From positions 186,001-250,000 of the forward strand of contig JAJEKV010000344.1 of assembly GCA_021234155.1 (NCBI GenBank): a stretch of DNA of 64,000 nucleotides. Reading direction: 5' to 3'. How positions within the stretch are numbered: the stretch's first letter is position 1; each line of letters opens with the position of its first letter. Origin of the DNA: Isoetes taiwanensis (lineage: Eukaryota; Streptophyta; Lycopodiopsida; Isoetales; Isoetaceae). Positions 7,910 to 59,420 of this stretch are shown here, one piece after another. Under the pieces are notes generated by a model that was given only the letters and a program-made list of their open reading frames with translations, was not told the DNA's origin and searched no databases. A program made the translations under genes and the position numbers.

Positions 7910-9715
7910 TACCATTCTTTCTGTTTGCTTTTTACTCTTTTCTTTTCCTTTTCCTCGTTTTCACACTTCCCTTTTTCCTTTTCTTTTTTTTTTTTCATTT
8001 TCCTTGCATGCTTCCTTTTTCTTTCTTTCTTTTTTTTTTTTCTTCTTTTTTTTCACATCCTTGTTTTCCCCTACGTTGCCCTTCCCTTTTCCCTTCTTCC
8101 CAAACCTCTTTTCCCCACCCTTTCCCTCTTTTTCTTTTCTTTTTCCCTTTTTCCATGCTCTTCTTAGCTTCTTTTTCCCTTTTTTTTAAGCCCTTTTTCT
8201 GTGCCTTTTTCCCCTTCTTTTCCCATTTAAGCTATTCCTCTTTTCCCCACCTTTATTTCGTTTCCTTTTTTCCCTTCCATTTTCCTCCTTTCCCCACCCT
8301 TTTCCTTCCCCTTTTTCCCCTCTCTCTATTTTTCCTTTTCCCTTTCCCTTCTCCCATGACATTATTTCCTTCACTTTTCTAATTTTCTTGCTCTTTCCCT
8401 CGTCCCCTTTTCCCCATGCCTTTTTTTTCCCTTCCATTTTGCATGCTCTTTTAAGCTTCCCTTTTACCCTTTGTTCACCCTTTTCCTCTTCCCTTTTTTC
8501 GTGTCCTTTCCCCTCCCTTTTCCCCTATCCCTCTTCCCCTTTTCCTCTTGCTTTTTTTTTAGGGTTCTTTTTTCCACTTTCTCCCTCCTTTTTATTTTTT
8601 CATTTCCCTTTTCCATTTTCAAGTACCCTTTTCCCTTCCCTTTTCCTCTTTTTCCCACCCTTTCCCTCTTCCCCTTTTGATGGTGCCCTTTTTCCCTTCA
8701 TTTTTCCCTTTCGTTTTCCGCTCCCTCTTCCAAGCCATTTATTCCTTCCCTTTTTCCTTTTCCCTTTTCTCTTTTTCCCATGCCTTTTTTCCTTCCCTTT
8801 TTTGCATTCTATTTTTTTTTTTCCTTTTCCTCGTGCCTTTTTGCCCTTCACATTCTCCCTTTCCTTCTTTTTTTTTTCCCCCTTTTTCCTTTTCCCATGC
8901 CTTTTTCTTTTTCCCCCACCCTTTTCCTACTTCCCTTTTTTTGATTTACCCATTTTCCTTCCCTTCTCCTCCTTTTCCTCTTCCCCCCGTTTTCTCTTTC
9001 CTTTTATCCTCTCATTTCCTTTTCGATTCAGCTTTTCCCTTTCCTCACCCTTTCCTTTTTTCTTTTTTCCCGTGTGCCCTTTTCTTCTTTCCTTTTCAGC
9101 GTGCCCTTTTTCCTCTTTCCTTTTTCCGCGTGCCCTTTTTCTCTTTTTCTCGTGCCCTTTTTCCTTTTCCTCACCTTTTTCCTCTTCCCCTTTTTCCCTT
9201 TCCCTCTTCCCTTGCCCTTTTCTTCCTCATATGTTACTTTCCCTTTCTCTTTTCCCATGCTTTCCCTTTCCGTACCCTTTCCCTCTTCCTTCTTCTTTTC
9301 CTCTTCCCCTTTTTCCCCTCCCTTTTTCTTTTTCGCTCCCTTCCCTTCTTCCTTTCCTTTTTCTCTTTTTCTTCTCCTCTTGTCCTTTTCCTTCCTTTTC
9401 CCCTCCCCCTCACACTTTCCCTTAATTCCCAATGTCCTCTCTTTCTTCCCACACCTCCCCCGCCTTTTTCCTTTCCCTTTTCCCATGCCCTTTTCCACCC
9501 CTACCCTTTTCCTTTTTTCACTTTTCCCTTCCCTTTTTCCCTCTTTCCCTTTTTCTCGGTGTCCTTTTTCCCTTCCCTTTCTCCCTTTCTTTTTTTTTTT
9601 TTCTTTTCTTTTCCCCCTGCCCTTTTCTCCTTTCCCTCTTTCCCTTTTGTCCATGCCTTTTTGCCCTTCACTTTTCCCCTTTCCTCCTCCCTTTTCCTTT
9701 ACCCTTTCCTCTTAA
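7910..9715 (+). repeat. 1.8-kb polypyrimidine (C/T) tract
   Basis: For about 1.8 kb the plus strand is almost entirely C and T, in irregular units such as CCCTTTTTCCCTTCC broken every few tens of bases by CATGCC or CGTGCCC. Open frames of 345 and 370 codons (Phe/Pro/Ser/Leu on plus, Lys/Gly/Arg/Glu on minus) exist because such sequence lacks stop codons; they are composition artefacts. It ends abruptly at GAGATCAAAGCATGGCC. Polypurine-polypyrimidine tracts of this length can form triplex DNA in vitro; any biological role here is inference. Confidence 0.95.
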
Positions 9716-10489
9716 GAGATCAAAGCATGGCCAATCGCGGTGGTGGGAAGTCGTGCGATAAATCTCGACCTCCGAATGCAATCGGATGATCTCAACCATC
9801 CAAATTAGGGTTTCATTCATGACATACTTACGCTATAACATTATAATATAAGATGATCTAAAGATTTTGCAATATCTACTCTGAAACTTTATGGAAAAGC
9901 ATTTTGCACATGTTTGGAGATGAATTTGTTCCTTTTTCTTTTGTGAATAGAGTTTAAGGTGATTTGAAAGATGATTTTGCAGGTGGATTTTGTCAATTTT
10001 GCAAGTACTTTAAGGTAAAATTTTAAGAGTTGTTTCTTTTCTTTGTAAGAAATTTCTAGAGCCAAATACGTGTAGTTGCCATGTTTTTGGAAGAGTTGCT
10101 TGTCTCTGAAAGCATGTCAAATTAATTTATGCTTTAGACTCTTACTTGTAATGGAATATGGAAGTTGATAACCTCTTGTGAACTCTTTGCAAAGATATAG
10201 CAATTGAAATATAGCATTTGGATCATCAGTTACAGTTTATAAGACTTTGTGTAGGAGGTTCGTTTCTGCCAAAGCATCCAGGTTCTCCATTCCCTTTTGC
10301 AGCCTTTTGCAAATTGGTCCATACACATATCAGCAATTTTGTTCTCGAGATGTATTCTTGTTTTACATTTTGAGTTCAATTGGATCATGCTTGACTGCTT
10401 GCAGGTGTTTGGATCCTCTAGAATTTGGAAGTCAATAGGTTTTGTATACTTAAGTGACAACTTTACAAGTCTAGACAACCTAGCATAAG
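9716..10489. other. AT-rich region without a supported gene
   Basis: Short ORFs only on both strands; nothing recognised. Confidence 0.4.
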
Positions 10490-16579: not shown

Positions 16580-17336
16580 TTGGCAATGTTCTTTTCTTGG
16601 AATTGACTAGATGTGATTTTTCAGCTGAGATATGCTAGAAACTGTGTAAAGAACTGCCATGCCAAATGGTTTTCTTCTTGCCCTGTCGACTGGGATGAAC
16701 TGTCAGCCATTTTTTATAGGAGACAACATTTCTCAATTCCTATAATTAAATTCATTCACTTTGCACTATTGCCAAAGTAATACATTCAAATTTGAATGGC
16801 TATTTATAATGGCTAACATTTCAACAAATGAATTAGATATTAATTTTGCTAGATTTATTTTTGTCATCTCTTAGAAGTTTACACATGAAAATGACTCCAA
16901 TGCTCCATGGTCAATGTTTTAAAATAGCAATTTTGATTGATTGTAAACACATAAATTTCAAGTATGATTTAAGCCACCTTAACCTCCGGCCATAGAGGGC
17001 AACCCTCCGTGCGCAGCACCTTGTTTAGTTTGACTTGAAGCAACAAATGTCGTCCTCTGTTAAATGTGTACCTTTTGGATTGAAACTTTTTTTCTGCTGC
17101 CCGTTTTCTTTAAAAGAGGTCAAAAATACCGAATTTACGTGTTTTCAAAAAAGGAATCTGCAATTGCACCACAGGTCATTAGTGCGTTTGCGAGGTCACC
17201 TTGTTTCAAGCGAATCGCTCCAGCTAGATTCGAGGATCTAACGGCCGGACGTCAAACCGGCCGTCTCAGATGAACTCCATGTGAATGCCGAAAAATTTAC
17301 ATGCGAGGCGCCTCTTACCTAGCACATAACGTATTA
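16580..17336. other. Region without a supported gene
   Basis: It contains the inverted partner (17173-17204) of the 30-bp motif at 6236-6265, sharing GCAAACGCACTAATGACCTG in complement. Nothing else recognised. Confidence 0.4.
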
Positions 17337-17480
17337 GGGAAAATGCCTCACGAGGATTTTCCGGGATAATAATCAGGCGCGGCCCGGCGGCGGGCGCGAA
17401 TGGCCCGGAAGCTTGCCCGCCACCGGCCCGGCCCGGGCCGAAGCGGATTATCCGGAGGAAAACCGAGTGAGGCATTTTCC
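17337..17480. repeat. Foldback element with ~35-bp arms and GC-rich loop
   Basis: GGGAAAATGCCTCAC at 17337 runs into a 35-bp arm whose reverse complement (a few mismatches) ends at 17480. The ~74-bp loop is extremely GC-rich, with runs such as GGCCCGGCGGCGGGC. It lies directly outside the left inverted repeat of the recombinase-containing segment and could form a stable hairpin. Confidence 0.75.
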
Positions 17481-17631
17481 CGTGCATAATGCACGCCACC
17501 TGGGATTACGTCCAATACTGGGCCTCCACGTCACTGCCACGTCATGATGAATATATTGTACTTTTTTCTGTCATTTTTTTGCGGAGCTCCTGGCTATGGC
17601 GCATGCCGACGTATTGCTGGAGCTCCCATGA

Positions 17632-18130
17632 TGGCGCTGTGCTTCATTATGATGGCGCTTGGTTTGTAGGCCATGGCAGATGTGTTTTAGTGGATTATTA
17701 GGCGGATTGACGATGGATTTGGTGATGATTTTGTGTTTTCTGCACAGATTTGTTGATCTGTTCTTCGGTGATGCTTGCATGTCAGTGAAACTTGTTGGAT
17801 AGGATCTTGGCGACGTTTCTTGGAAGAAATTGTTGGCGGTTTTGTTGTGAGGTTTCTTGTGAGGTTTATTGGAGCTTTCGGACGATGGCGTGCTTCATTA
17901 TGATGGCGCTTGGTTTGTAGACCATGGCAGATGTGTTTTAGTGGATTATTAGACGGATTGACGGTGGCTTTGGTGAGGATTTTGTGTTTTCTGCAGAGTT
18001 TTGTTGATCTCTTCTTCGGTGATGCTTGCATGTCAGTGGATGTTGTTTCATAGGATCTTGGCGATGTTGCTTGGAAGAAATTCTTGGCGGATTTGTTGTG
18101 AGGTTTCTTGTGAGATTTTGTTGGCCGATT
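17632..18130. repeat. 251-bp tandem duplication, two diverged units
   Basis: The unit around GCTTCATTATGATGGCGCTT occurs at about 17632-17883 and 17884-18130, roughly 90 percent identical by eye. It lies just upstream of the recombinase start codon, so it may be leader or promoter sequence. The 173-codon minus-strand frame across it is Lys/Asn/Thr-rich, repeats with the DNA and is not credible as a gene. Confidence 0.85.
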
Positions 18131-18407
18131 TCTTCTCATTTGTGGCAGATTTTTGATTATCCTTGGTCTTAAAGATTCTGTGGCCGATATTGGCGACTTT
18201 TGGAGCATATCTTTGGTGATCTTTTGGTCGATCCTTGTGATCTTTTTGTGATTTGGTGGCTTTTCATTACTGGCCGAGTTCAGAGTATGGATTGCTTTGT
18301 ACCTTACTTGAAGATGGATCTTTATTTGATTCTGATTTTGTTGTTAAGTAGAATGGCTGAGAATCCGGGCCTTCACAAGATTTTCGTTTACACTCGCTGC
18401 TCTAGAC

Positions 18408-20507
18408 ATGACAAATGATGATGTTTCTTTGGAAGAAAGTGAGCGGATCTTAGCAGAGTTGTCTGATGATAACGAGAGTGATTGTGAAGAATATGACACA
18501 AAGGATGACTGGCTGCCTCTTGATGAAGATGTGCTTTCTGAGGCATTGAATGGTGGAATAGATCGTTCAAAATCGGTTAATGCATGGGCTAGGCGCAGGT
18601 TTGATCAGTGGAGAAAAGACTTTAAGCAGCAGGTTCATATTCCTATAGAGAAGCTGCCATTAAAGATATTGAACGAGATGCTGACCAAGTTCCTGATTCA
18701 GGTAATTTTTTTCCATGCATAATTTGTTATTATTTTTTCTGTATTTGCATAATTTTTTACTTATGTTATGTTGTTATTGTAGGCAAAGAAGAAAAATGGG
18801 AAACTCTATCCTCCTGGAACGTAAGTTTTTTCATTTGTTTTTTGGGTGTTATTTAGTGAGATTTAATTGTGTTGTTTGTTTGCAGACTTAACTCTTTGTT
18901 TAGAGGTGTTGGTAGAATAGTTAGAAGAGAGCAAGAGAAACTAATTGAGAGAGTGGTGTCCGTGAACATCCTTTCAATATCGAGGCCGATCCTCTTTTTT
19001 CTGTATGCCGAGCCGTGGGAGGCTTTTGTTGGCATGGTGAAGAAGTCGAGGAAGGAGGGAAATTATGAAAAGGCAAAGAAGAAGGCTCCTGTTATTACAT
19101 TCAGCCTTGAGAGAGAAATTCTTTCTGATATCGATCATCAGATTTCACATCCTTCAGGTTGTATCAAGCGCCTTGTGTATTACATGTTGACACGTTTTGG
19201 GATTAGGGCATCAAAGGAGTTATATCAGGTAAAAGACTGTGATATGTGTTTGGATAGAGATGAAATTAGGGAGATGGTGAAATATGGGGAGAGAATCAGT
19301 AAGAATTACAGTCCTACTATCACTAAATTTGACGACGAGCACTTCAGAAAACCAGTGTGGACGCATGAGAAGGATTTTGTGCTTACATTTAAGCAGTATA
19401 TTCGCCACTTACATGCGAAAGAGAAGGACGATGAAGCGCGGCACTTCTTTCTGCAACCGATCCCTAATTTCAGAACTATGGTGAGTTTTTTTGATATGTT
19501 TTTGAATTTTATATTTTGTAGTTAATTTTCTAATATTTTGTGTATTGCAGACTTGGTATGCGGTGACACCAGTTGGGATTAATTCACTTGGCAAGTGGTT
19601 TTACTATGGCTTACATTTGTGCATCCGAAGCGGAGATTTGTAATAAGTCCGGCAGAGTTTCATTGGTTTACTGCGTCTTGCCGCTTCCGATGCTCCTAGC
19701 GGGGTCTTTTTTGGAATGCGACATTGAGAGGGCATAAGAGTGTAGATGGATTTTTGAAGTAAGTTGAGTTCTTTTTCCTTTGCTGTTTTTTCTATGATGT
19801 ATATTTTTCATGATGTTTATTTAATATGTTTTAGGTACGACAGAACTGGAGATTCGAAGATTAATGCATGCATGGAAATAATCGGACAGCCATGTAATGC
19901 CGACGGGTCGGCACGTTCTTACAAGGATGTGCTTGCAGGTAATTTCAGATAATCACATTGTTTATTTGTTTTCTTCGTATCTTTTTTTCAAATTTTAATT
20001 ATTGGTTTTTTACAGCTGAAGTTCAAAAGCAGACCTCTGCTATAACAGATTCTAATGCAGTTCTTGCGGAGGTTGATGGCACATCTTGCGTGTGGTCAAG
20101 TTCTTTTTACGCTTGAAATGATGTTTAACGAGATGTTGGGAAGGAAAATGTCAAGGATTCTCGAGGTTCTATTTTGGAATTGAAAGGTTCTTCAAAGATC
20201 CGTTATGGAATTGAAGGATTACGGAGTTGCAATCATGCGGTTGCATCGATATTGGATGGTCAACACTAACAAATTCGAGGTTGATGATGATCCATATGAC
20301 GAAGATTTCTATGCTACTTTGAGCAAGGAACATCCTGAGAGTGCAAAGGCGATTGGGAGGTTCATTGGTCCTGTTATCAATAATCGAGGTACTTTTTCTA
20401 ATTGCACTTTCAACTTCGGCGGCGTTGATATCAAGGATTTAGCAGTGGTGATACGTGATGTTTTGGATAAAAATCGACATGCTTCTAGTTCTGGCAGTGC
20501 AGTGTGA
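18408..20507 (+). pseudogene. Crypton/DUF3504-like tyrosine recombinase, multi-exon, catalytic exon broken
   Basis: Exons with GT-AG borders are 18408-18701, 18783-18820, 18886-19480, about 19551-19755, and from 19834. The N-terminal part is acidic, then NAWARRRFDQWRKDF and KLPLKILNEMLTKFLIQ lead into KKKNGKLYPPGTLNSLFRGV. This is the layout of the core-binding domain in Crypton elements and their domesticated relatives (QRICH1, ZMYM, KIAA1958). The catalytic part shows the first arginine in FGIRASKELYQVK, then WYAVTPVGINSLGKW and KSGRVSLV (second basic motif, K where His is common). GHKSVDGFLK is spliced to YDR, which supplies the GH...Y nucleophile motif. Exon 4 has an in-frame stop near 19640 and about three frame changes before the GHK motif, so the catalytic domain is not intact as read. 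A last block (20205-20507) ends with GTFSNCTFNFG, resembling a short motif downstream of the catalytic domain in related proteins. Introns are unusual for a Crypton and could point to an old or domesticated gene. Confidence 0.75.
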
Positions 20508-20986
20508 TCTTTCTGGCAGTATGAAGATAATGTTTCGGCAAAGAATTGCGTGTGTATCGAAAAAAATTTTTTTTGAACTTTGTGATCTTGAGTCCTTTTG
20601 GTATAATCATAAACTTTGGATGATAAGAAACTTTGTAATTTTGTGATCTTTTTGTATAAGGGAAACTTTGATGACATAAAACTTTGTTATTTTTGATGTG
20701 ATTAAGTGTGTAATGGTTGTAATGGATAAACTTTATAAAAATTATGGCTGTGGTGGACGTGAAATTACCTAAAATAATTTTAAGCTAAAATACCAGTAAT
20801 CCCAAGGTGGCGTGCATTACTCTTCTACTTTTGGTTAAGTGAGAAAGAAAATTCCTAGCAGAAGTCTCAATTGGCCGCCAAAATTTTGAGACGTGGTATA
20901 GCCGGTTTGTTTAATATCGTGACATAACCGTGTTAAAAAGACGTGCTAGACAAATCTAGGGAATAGTACCTTCGGCAGAAGAGAAA

Positions 20987-56759: not shown

Positions 56760-57240
56760 TTAGTGTCATATGTGATGTTAGATATGGTGATACTTGTGAA
56801 TGGTGGATTGTGCGCCATATGTGGTGCCAATCGCTGGCTTTGCGCTAAATATTGCACCACGCTATCCGCCACATATGGGGTGGTGGATGCCTTGGGATGT
56901 GGTGCCTTCTTTTGCATTGTGGTGCCACATGTGGTGTCTAATGTGGCACCACTATGGATCCACATTTTGCACCACATGTGGTGTCTTTGACGCCATTTGT
57001 GGTGCCGGTAATGGATTGCCATATGTGGTGCCTTGGGTGCATTGTGGTGCCATAGGTGGTGTGTCATGTGGCACCAGTTTGGTGCCACATGCCACACCAC
57101 ATGTGGTGAATATGACGCCACCGGTGTTACATGCCACACCACATGTGGTGAATATGCGCCATTTGTGGTGCAAAGTTTGTCATGATGGAATTTGTGGTGT
57201 GTAAAGTGGTGCCTGTTGTGTCATGTGGTACTAACCTTGG
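56760..57240. repeat. Minisatellite of GTGGTGCCATATGTGG-type units
   Basis: Irregular units of about 15-30 bp built from CATATGTGGTGCC, CACATGTGGTG and GTGCCAC are repeated for about 480 bp. Many units are self-complementary around CACATGTG. The ORFs on both strands (up to 160 codons, rich in His/Trp/Thr or Cys/Val) come from the repeat. Confidence 0.85.
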
Positions 57241-57292
57241 ATTACTTTCCAGTTGAATTCAACAGGACACTGGGAGAATGGATCAACTCTAC

Positions 57293-57344
57293 AAGATCAG
57301 AAGTGATTCAGTGTAAGGCAAGATCAGAAGTGATTCAGTGTAAG
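57293..57344. repeat. 27-bp tandem duplication
   Basis: AAGATCAGAAGTGATTCAGT plus five bases occurs twice without mismatch, period 27. Confidence 0.9.
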
Positions 57345-57679
57345 TCTGCTCAGCCTCTTGAGGTACTTCATAACAAAATTCCTGAAGTGCTTAGTATAAT
57401 TGTATTCTCATTGACAAATTTGCGTTCTCTTTGCAGGATTTGCAATCATTGTTGCATTGAGAATTGCTGTCATGAATTTTCTACAGCATGGGTACAAGCC
57501 TTAGGTGTGAGTAGGGAGGATCAAAAGCAACTTCAAGCTACTGAGGCACTTACAGGTGAGCACTTATAGGTAGCTTAGTTTACATGCTAAGGGCCTGATG
57601 TAAGGGACAGATGCCAATTAGGATTAGTGGACTTCCTAATCTTTCACCCTGGCTTAGTCTCTTTCGTTTGTCCTGTTTG

Positions 57680-57960
57680 ATGTGTCTAATTTGCCCCCTA
57701 GGATGAGGTCGCTCACTCATTTTAGGTGGCTTAATTAGATACATCAATCAGGAAACTCAAAAGAGAGTAAGCCCGGCTTAATCTCCTTAGTTTTTGTTTT
57801 GCGGTATCTAATTTGCCCCTAGGATGACATCGCTCACTCGGGTGGCAAATTAGATACATCAACGTAAAACTTCGAAAAAGGGAGTAAGCCCGACATAAAA
57901 CAAGATCCTGGCTGGCTTAGTCTCTTTTGCTTCTCCTGTTTTGTGTATCTAAAGTGCCAA
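57680..57960. repeat. ~122-bp direct repeat with internal inverted repeats
   Basis: TCTAATTTGCCCCCTAGGAT at 57684 recurs, slightly changed, at about 57806, with a partial third copy near 57945. Each unit also contains the complement GGC(A/T)(T)AATTAGATAC, giving hairpins such as 57805-57858. GGAGTAAGCCCG words link units. Confidence 0.75.
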
Positions 57961-58689
57961 GTCAAGTCAAGCTCCAGTAGGTGCTCCAACTGGACAACAA
58001 TCTGCCAGATCAGCAGATGCATTAAGTCATGCTCCACACCAATCTGCCAAATCAGCAGATGCATCAGGTTATGATCTGAACAAATCGTTTGGTGAATGTA
58101 AGTCACAAGGTAACTTCCAACCTTTTGTGCCTGTCTTCTTTTTAATTTGACCCATATAGTTACCGAATCTGTTAAATTTTTGCAGCTGGAAGTGTCTCAG
58201 AGAAAAAGCAAGAGCGAGAATTCAAAAAAAAGACACCTCCAAGACATTCTGAAGCATATATGTGTCTTGCTATATGTGTCTTTGTAAAGCATGTTGTGGC
58301 TGCAGTAATGCGAGACTTGGACATACTATCCCAATGCAAGGTGAGTTCGTAAATTTGAAGGTATTACTCATCCAATGTGAGGCCTGATATGTTTGTTGCA
58401 GGGTGTACCAATTTCTAGTTGTTGTTGGACCGCAGCGAGAATGATGATTGATGTTGTAAAGCACGATTCTTTGTAGTAATGAAGTTGAGGTTGGTGGATC
58501 AATAGATCTTTACTTGTAATCACATGTTTGTATTATTGTAACCAAAGAGGTTATTCTTGTAACCTATTCTTTCATTGACACTCTAATGTACATTGTTGTA
58601 TACTATTGTATACAATAGACTTTTTCGGCTGACGAGCAACACTCGGTGGAGTTCAAATCTCGGAAGAAATTGATGTATTCAAAGATTCA

Positions 58690-59420
58690 TGACAATGTGG
58701 TGTTACATGTCGTGATAGATGTGGTGATGCAAATGGTGCATGTGGTGAATCATGTGGTGCGTTTGGTGAACCATGTGGTGAATCATGTGGTGAATCATAG
58801 GTGGCATCTTTGGAGCTTACGTGGCATGTTGGAGCCTAGGTGGCATGTTTGAGCCACCTTGGCATATTTGAGCCTAGGTGGCATATTTGAGCCACCTTGG
58901 CATGCTTGAGCCTTTACATGACCTTTGTTACATGTTTGACTTTCATTGACCAACATGTTTGGTGATGCAAATGGTGCATGTGGTGAATCATGTGATTCAT
59001 TTGGTGAATCATGTGGTGAATCATAGGTGGCATGTTGGAGCTTCGTGGCATGTTGGAGCCTAGGTGGCATGTTTGAGCCACCTTGGCATGTTGGAGCCTA
59101 GGTGGCATATTTGAGCCACCTTGGCATGCTTTTGAGCCTTTACATGACCTTTGTTACATGTTTGACTTCCATTGACCAACATGTTTGGTGATGCAAATGG
59201 TGCATGTGGTGGATCATGTGGTGCATTTGGTGAATCATGTGGTGAATCATGCGGTGAATCATAGGTGGCATGTTGGGGCTTACGTGGCATGTTGGAGCCT
59301 AGGTGGCATGTTTGAGCCACCTTGGCATGTTGGAGCCTAGGTGGCATGCTTTTTCGGTCTATGTGGCATGCTTGACCCTTTCTGCGTGGCATGTTGGAGC
59401 CTAGGTGGCATGCATGCAAA
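58690..59420. repeat. Higher-order minisatellite, ~230-bp unit, three copies
   Basis: GGTGATGCAAATGGTGCATG marks units at 58723, 58961 and 59187 (periods 238 and 226). Within each unit a smaller repeat of about 25 bp alternates (GAGCCTAGGTGGCATGTT / GAGCCACCTTGGCATGTT), and GTGGTGAATCAT is repeated two to four times. Minus-strand frames rich in Pro/His/Met (up to 119 codons) are repeat artefacts. Confidence 0.9.

Follow-up and report, generated by a model that had tools for sequence, protein, structure and literature searches.

Positions 17331 to 20820 of the window, the 64,000 nucleotides of Isoetes taiwanensis contig JAJEKV010000344.1 analysed in this study, probably represent a dead copy of a DNA transposon mobilised by a tyrosine recombinase (YR), and we read the family to which it belongs as a Crypton-like group of lycophyte YR transposons whose end structure is new. 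An earlier note on this DNA had described 18408-20507 as a Crypton-like tyrosine recombinase gene; this interval proved to be the coding part, but the whole element, a member of a mobile family, spans 17331-20820. The excerpted text of PMC3212892 calls YR genes rare in eukaryotes, and according to an excerpt of PMC11397423 Cryptons had not been identified in plants. Table 2 of PMC4438587, available as an excerpt, lists Crypton in all groups studied, and similarity-based plant Crypton annotations may thus exist. None of the literature matches listed for Crypton with plant or YR, a scope outside which Repbase and most subscription journals lie, described elements of this kind in a lycophyte, and a search for Crypton with Isoetes returned no paper. 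A repetitive family in which one copy is uninterrupted, the ends are defined and empty sites exist would open to testing the way in which YR transposons of eukaryotes are excised and inserted. The features of the window copy are listed in Table 1.

Table 1. Features of the YR transposon copy in the window (window coordinates)
Feature	Position	Strand	Basis
Whole transposon, 3,490 bp, without target-site duplication	17331..20820	+	Ends common to copies in other flanks
Left terminal motif GTATTA (GTATWA in most copies)	17331..17336	+	Left-end comparison
Long G+C-rich imperfect hairpin; outer arms GGGAAAATGCCTCAC / GTGAGGCATTTTCCC	17337..17481	+	DNA folding, pair counts
Left copy of inverted repeat, 24 letters, one-base gap versus right copy; the hairpin lies outside it, towards the left end	17486..17509	+	
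Tandem duplication, 251-bp, 1.9 copies, upstream of ATG	17639..18118	+	TRF
Exon 1	18408..18701	+	15-copy alignment
Exon 2	18783..18820	+	15-copy alignment
Exon 3; catalytic Arg I at codon 19205-19207	18886..19480	+	15-copy alignment
Exon 4; K-x-x-R box codons 19645-19647 and 19654-19656, GHK His 19733-19735; frameshifted here	19551..19758	+	
Exon 5; catalytic Tyr codon 19836-19838 (YDR)	19835..19938	+	15-copy alignment
Exon 6; C-terminal region, frameshifted in window copy	20016..20507	+	15-copy alignment
Right inverted repeat, 25 bp, ends ATTAC, at extreme right end	20796..20820	+	Pattern matches in genome

The window feature is one copy of a mobile family that has siblings, short copies and empty sites. 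In the genome searched (1,658,258,908 bases in 1110 contigs), its DNA gave at least 50 matches (40 of 150 candidates scored), and a protein search listed at least 192 matches (119 of 2656 first-look candidates scored), many of which are single exons and do not amount to a copy count. The ends are sharp across copies in differing flanks, with GTATWAGGG at the left and ATTAC at the right. The terminal letters of the window copy, GTATTAGGG at the left and GTGCATTAC at the right, both recur in copies with other flanks, and the empty sites of three sibling copies gave boundaries identical to those set for the element. The left terminal motif was present, with at most one substitution, in 24 of the 30 left ends examined. 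The right-end repeat pattern, allowing up to three mismatches, occurred at 53 places in the genome compared with one for the reversed pattern, and the inner left repeat pattern occurred at 26 places compared with none for its reversed control. Furthermore, seven short copies (L031-L033, L036-L038 and L040) have both ends approximately 0.8-1.4 kb apart, a spacing that leaves insufficient room for the recombinase gene. The 251-bp tandem duplication is also present in L014, L021 and L027.

The alignment of 15 copies predicts a gene of six exons separated by five GT-AG introns, in agreement with the introns that the earlier note had placed in it. All ten splice dinucleotides are intact in nine of the 15 copies, including that of the window, and at least one is lost in each of L013, L015, L016, L025, L026 and L029. 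The motifs that had been named were all located on the + strand in the DNA of exons 2-5: KKNGKLYPPGT/LNSLFRGV marks the exon 2/exon 3 join, FGIRASKELYQV lies in exon 3, exon 4 holds WYAVTPVGINSLGKW, KSGRVSLV and GHKSVDGFLK, each in a different frame, and exon 5 begins with YDR. The suspicion that the window copy is a relic was borne out by a frameshift in exon 4, after which reading ends at codon 340; because it is frameshifted from exon 4 onward, we regard this copy as dead. L019, a natural copy on contig C1027, encodes 574 codons without a stop, and the remaining 14 of the 15 aligned copies are interrupted in the aligned reading. The dN/dS ratio was 0.06 for L019/L023 (420 codons), 0.11 for L019/window (306 codons), 0.08 for L023/window (306 codons) and 0.07 for L019/L020 (245 codons), these being the four computable pairs, with four more distant pairs saturated at silent sites. 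The range of 0.06-0.11, together with DNA recurring in at least 50 matches, argues against a gene arisen by chance. The recombinase protein was kept under selection in this lineage.

As far as residue positions and profile searches can tell, it was right to predict a tyrosine recombinase, with DUF3504 as its nearest Pfam family. In the hhalign alignment, R217, K249, K341-x-x-R344, H367 and Y376 of L019 align to R148, K172, H244, R247, H270 and Y279 of XerD, which we take to be its catalytic residues, so that the R, K/H-x-x-R and Y positions picked out beforehand fall on the catalytic positions of XerD. The R-H and H-Y spacings (23 and 9) equal those of XerD, with R-K at 32 versus 24, and the box II spacing [HK]xxR-x21-G[HKW]-x8-Y is also that of XerD and is contained in 109 of 200,000 protein shuffles. 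The element is thus like bacterial XerC/XerD and phage integrases in its catalytic positions and box II spacing, but overall similarity is low: the hhalign comparison with 58 Xer/phage integrases was weak (probability 0.8%, E 0.068 over 176 columns; reversed control E 0.2). DUF3504 (PF12012; Pfam gathering cut-off 29.7 bits) was the first Pfam match of L019 but scored 17.1 bits (E 0.0061), or 18.9 bits in the trimmed form, both below the cut-off. When seven protein rows were used, the other six being 36-88% identical to the first, DUF3504 was found in five (best E 2.6e-4) and the phrog_1 integrase likewise in five (E 2.3e-4). PF00589 gave E 0.15 for L019 and 0.029 at best among the seven rows, and L019 matched three integrase families of PHROGs (E 3.4e-4, 0.033 and 0.2). 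In the seven-row alignment, IR, SK, KSGR and TG are invariant, and YDR or YDK is present in all six rows reaching exon 5. The tetrad reads R-K-R-Y, K replacing the first H of R-H-R-Y in all seven rows, and the GH histidine is replaced by R or Q in some of them. NCBIfam and PDB sequence searches with the recombinase family gave no match, no relative was detected when viral contigs were scanned with the L019 protein, and Pfam on pieces of the window DNA returned nothing notable. An AlphaFold model of the window's exon 3 alone was unusable (mean pLDDT 35.8).

Insertion is precise. None of the 16 copies whose two ends were both defined carried a target duplication of at least 3 bp. In four of 15 cases (L014, L023, L032 and L038; 40 of 1044 candidates scored), the joined flanks had a DNA match spanning the junction, the match of L038 lying inside a tandem repeat and covering only part of the length. 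The eight paralogous empty sites aligned for L014, L023 and L032 lack the element and continue across the junction with minor differences, and one of those for L032 is identical at 160 of 160 bases. Among the 40 of 1044 candidates scored, none proved to be an empty site of the window copy itself. The target motif is WTTAY^G: after one left and five right duplicate flanks were dropped, T occupied -4 in 19 and -3 in 15 of the 23 distinct left flanks, with A at -2 in 20 and T or C at -1 in 21, and 26 of the 41 distinct right flanks had G at +1. Weak further signals were A at -5 (13/23, p 0.007) and A at +10 (22/41, p 0.002), and no dyad pattern was seen within 12 bases of the insertion point. The right end reads ATTAC at 38, ATTAT at two and ATTAG at one of the 41 distinct junctions, and 17 of 23 targets end in T. 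It follows that the target supplies the left flank and the element supplies the right end. As to short terminal direct repeats of 4-6 bp of the CryptonF/S kind, between two and five of the five bases of the right-end ATTAC are matched by the left flank, and all five in two of 16 copies.

The hairpin of the window copy, folded from 17331 to 17485, has an energy of -53.0 kcal/mol (z -7.7 versus 30 mononucleotide shuffles), and 23 of 24 left-end hairpins have z of -5.4 or lower against the same number of such shuffles; the exception is L045, whose hairpin (z -1.1) is no better than shuffles. The outer stem keeps its pairing while its letters change. Its 15 outermost pairs were compared in 17 distinct rows from 24 copies, which are related by shared ancestry, are not independent and include L024 with its degraded right arm; 90.2% of the 255 cells are paired, and two-sided changes occur in seven of the 15 pairs (22 cells), with slid partners, the control, pairing at 27-66%. 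None of 500 shuffles reached the outer stem in paired cells, two-sided cells or score; the remaining two covariation measures of the five, two-sided pairs (17/500) and pair types (11/500), were equalled by some shuffles. Because pairing is kept and sequence is not, we infer that the hairpin may be a working part of the attachment site, and it offers a direct means of testing the use of a folded DNA site by a eukaryotic recombinase. Gene conversion between the arms could alternatively keep the pairing. A scan of the 64-kb window for stems of at least 24 pairs returned one, at 56925-57106; the interrupted hairpin of the element itself fell below this threshold.

Some diverged families in the genome repeat the layout of hairpin and inverted repeat with other letters, while other tested ones do not. 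On the left side of 11 related loci, the stem scan found a stem in seven (L071, L074, L075, L076, L077, L078 and L081) and none of at least 24 pairs in L072, L073, L079 and L080; stems away from the left side occur in L072 (7329-7404) and L081 (4290-4399 and 4708-4824). With windows overlapping the query repeat excluded from the controls, the inverted repeat exceeded all 300 windows and 300 shuffles in L014, the window copy, L075-L078 and L081, was marginal in L071 and L072 (reached by 4/300 windows each, and by 0/300 and 1/300 shuffles, respectively), and was not above controls in L074. Both hairpin and inverted repeat, in other letters, are present in L076/L077 (51-52% protein identity), L078 (52%), L081 (39%) and the short L075. 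A PHROGs scan of the L080 and L081 frames found no integrase, and Pfam Phage_integrase gave E 0.082 for L080 and no match for L081, L076 and L078. L076 and L077 (C1042 and C1039), which lie in different flanks, share 99.2% identity along 2,087 bp, an indication of recent movement. The short element L075 (C1082:5864900-5866620) belongs to another family, has inverted repeats as well as a left hairpin, and starts precisely where L040 ends on the right. A second group in the genome comprises 13 DUF3504 matches, two of them over the cut-off (C31, 33.4 bits; C606, 31 bits), with L071-L074 at 21.3-24.2 bits, below it. In an eight-sequence database, tblastn with L019 gave E 7e-6 and 1e-12 for the two loci C31 and C606, and 6e-14 to 1.2e-12 for the six other second-group sequences, which represent five places, L012 lying inside L071. 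L071-L074 (C1040, C1035, C1038 and C1089) are multi-copy, 93-98% identical over approximately 0.9-4.1 kb, and distant from L019.

On C1072, a right end is directly joined to another left end (ATTAC^GTATAAGGG), a fixed natural junction. Its 191 bases, inverted repeats and hairpin together, fold into one stem-loop of -53.7 kcal/mol with the crossover at the hairpin foot (z -11.7 versus 50 mononucleotide shuffles). We propose the following scenario for the movement of the element. The YR would cut beside ATTAC at the right end and beside GTATWA at the left end, and the excised element would circularise, giving the circle junction ATTAC^GTATWA, at which both inverted repeats would face each other around the hairpin. 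The YR may then recombine this junction with a WTTAY^G site, the hairpin presumably being a functional part of the attachment site. A bold minority hypothesis, unproven and in our estimate rather unlikely, goes further and takes the element for a eukaryotic counterpart of integron cassettes. Both repeats and the hairpin would form a giant stem-loop in one strand, recognised by its folded shape; ATTAC^GTATWA would be exchanged as a single strand with duplex WTTAY^G, replication would complete the insertion, and the elements would form an order of YR transposons apart from Cryptons. One reason for this attC-like reading is the constancy of ATTAC at the right end, which fits a fixed crossover point. 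If it were true, structure and not sequence would define the site, which would explain the paired stems with changing letters, the short asymmetric target and the fixed crossover point. By analogy with attC, as excerpted accounts of integrons present it, both may be regarded as YR systems with a palindromic site, but the host system here is a eukaryotic transposon and use of a folded strand is hypothetical.

A rival with a substantial though less than even chance is an ordinary, CryptonA-like Crypton in an unreported host, whose hairpin and inverted repeats would be lineage-specific and play no role in recombination. DUF3504 is the best Pfam match, no other enzyme was seen in the tested frames, target duplication is absent, and integration of a circle has been proposed for Cryptons in the excerpted PMC3212892. 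The same source, as excerpted, also provides for CryptonA/CryptonI the YR as sole enzyme seen, a DUF3504-type domain, non-autonomous derivatives and a proposed circular intermediate, all in common with the present elements. However, no terminal repeats, direct or inverted, were found in animal Cryptons (PMC3212892, in excerpt), and the 24-25-bp inverted repeats, long left hairpin, five introns, K for His in box II and plant host set the elements apart. The Crypton kinship claimed at the outset is plausible in that DUF3504 is the nearest Pfam family, but the inverted repeats, the left hairpin and the K in place of the first H are unlike described Cryptons. The recurrence of hairpin and inverted repeat with other letters in L076, L077, L078, L081 and L075, and the retention of both ends by short copies, also count against a layout irrelevant to recombination. 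It is unlikely, in turn, that the left hairpin is a foldback MITE trapped at the end of an ancestral copy or serves as a chromatin or terminator element, rather than as a recombination site: its palindromic appearance is MITE-like, conversion between arms is able to keep pairing, and some related loci were found to have no left hairpin, but it occupies one and the same position in 24 of the 30 left ends examined and recurs, in different letters, to the left in seven of 11 related loci.

A cut-and-paste TIR transposon that uses a DDE enzyme encoded elsewhere and has captured the YR gene could account for inverted repeats of 24-25 bp; it is made highly improbable by the lack of a duplication of at least 3 bp in all 16 paired copies, by the absence of a DDE match in the tested frames and by the asymmetric placement of the repeats, the left one approximately 155 bp inside the end and the right one at the end. 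Helitrons insert without target duplication, and a Helitron or other rolling-circle element would share with the present family this property, insertion at an A-T step and a hairpin near one end. Such an origin is very improbable indeed, given ends of the form GTATWA..ATTAC instead of the 5' TC and 3' CTRR of Helitrons (PMC7385966, in excerpt) and the lack of a Rep or helicase match in the tested frames; the likeness to Helitrons as excerpted there lies in the hairpin near one end and the AT-step insertion, with ends and enzyme different. Between the ends, reverse transcriptase, DDE, Rep and helicase had no match among the 6 + 10 longer reading frames tested, and a DIRS/Ngaro retrotransposon was rejected for want of a reverse transcriptase match there. 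A domesticated host gene with segmental duplicates, although suggested by the introns and by dN/dS far below 1, is hardly credible, since the copies have unrelated flanks, paralogous empty sites exist for three of them, and many are broken. The domesticated DUF3504 (PF12012) genes of animals are akin in the YR region, and C31 and C606 of this genome pass the cut-off for that family, but published DUF3504 domains, in the excerpts available, lack most catalytic residues; in the transposon family proposed here, the YR positions are kept except for K in place of H, and the gene is mobile.

Several other features of the window were recorded. Directly downstream of the element lies a 628-codon protein-kinase frame (Pkinase E 1.2e-45). 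At 7928-9711, approximately 1.8 kb consists almost entirely of C and T on one strand, with degenerate CCCTTTTTCC-like repeats, and the skews over 8001-10000 are -0.685 (GC) and -0.70 (AT). From approximately 29400 to 55000, identical short tandem repeats recur every 6.7 kb or so (30108, 36846, 43575 and 50300), suggesting a tandem array of approximately four 6.7-kb units. Dense TGTGGTG / CACCACAT repeats fill 56800-59416, a region that also holds the single hairpin of the 24-pair scan, and an array with a 226-bp period lies at 58722-59347.
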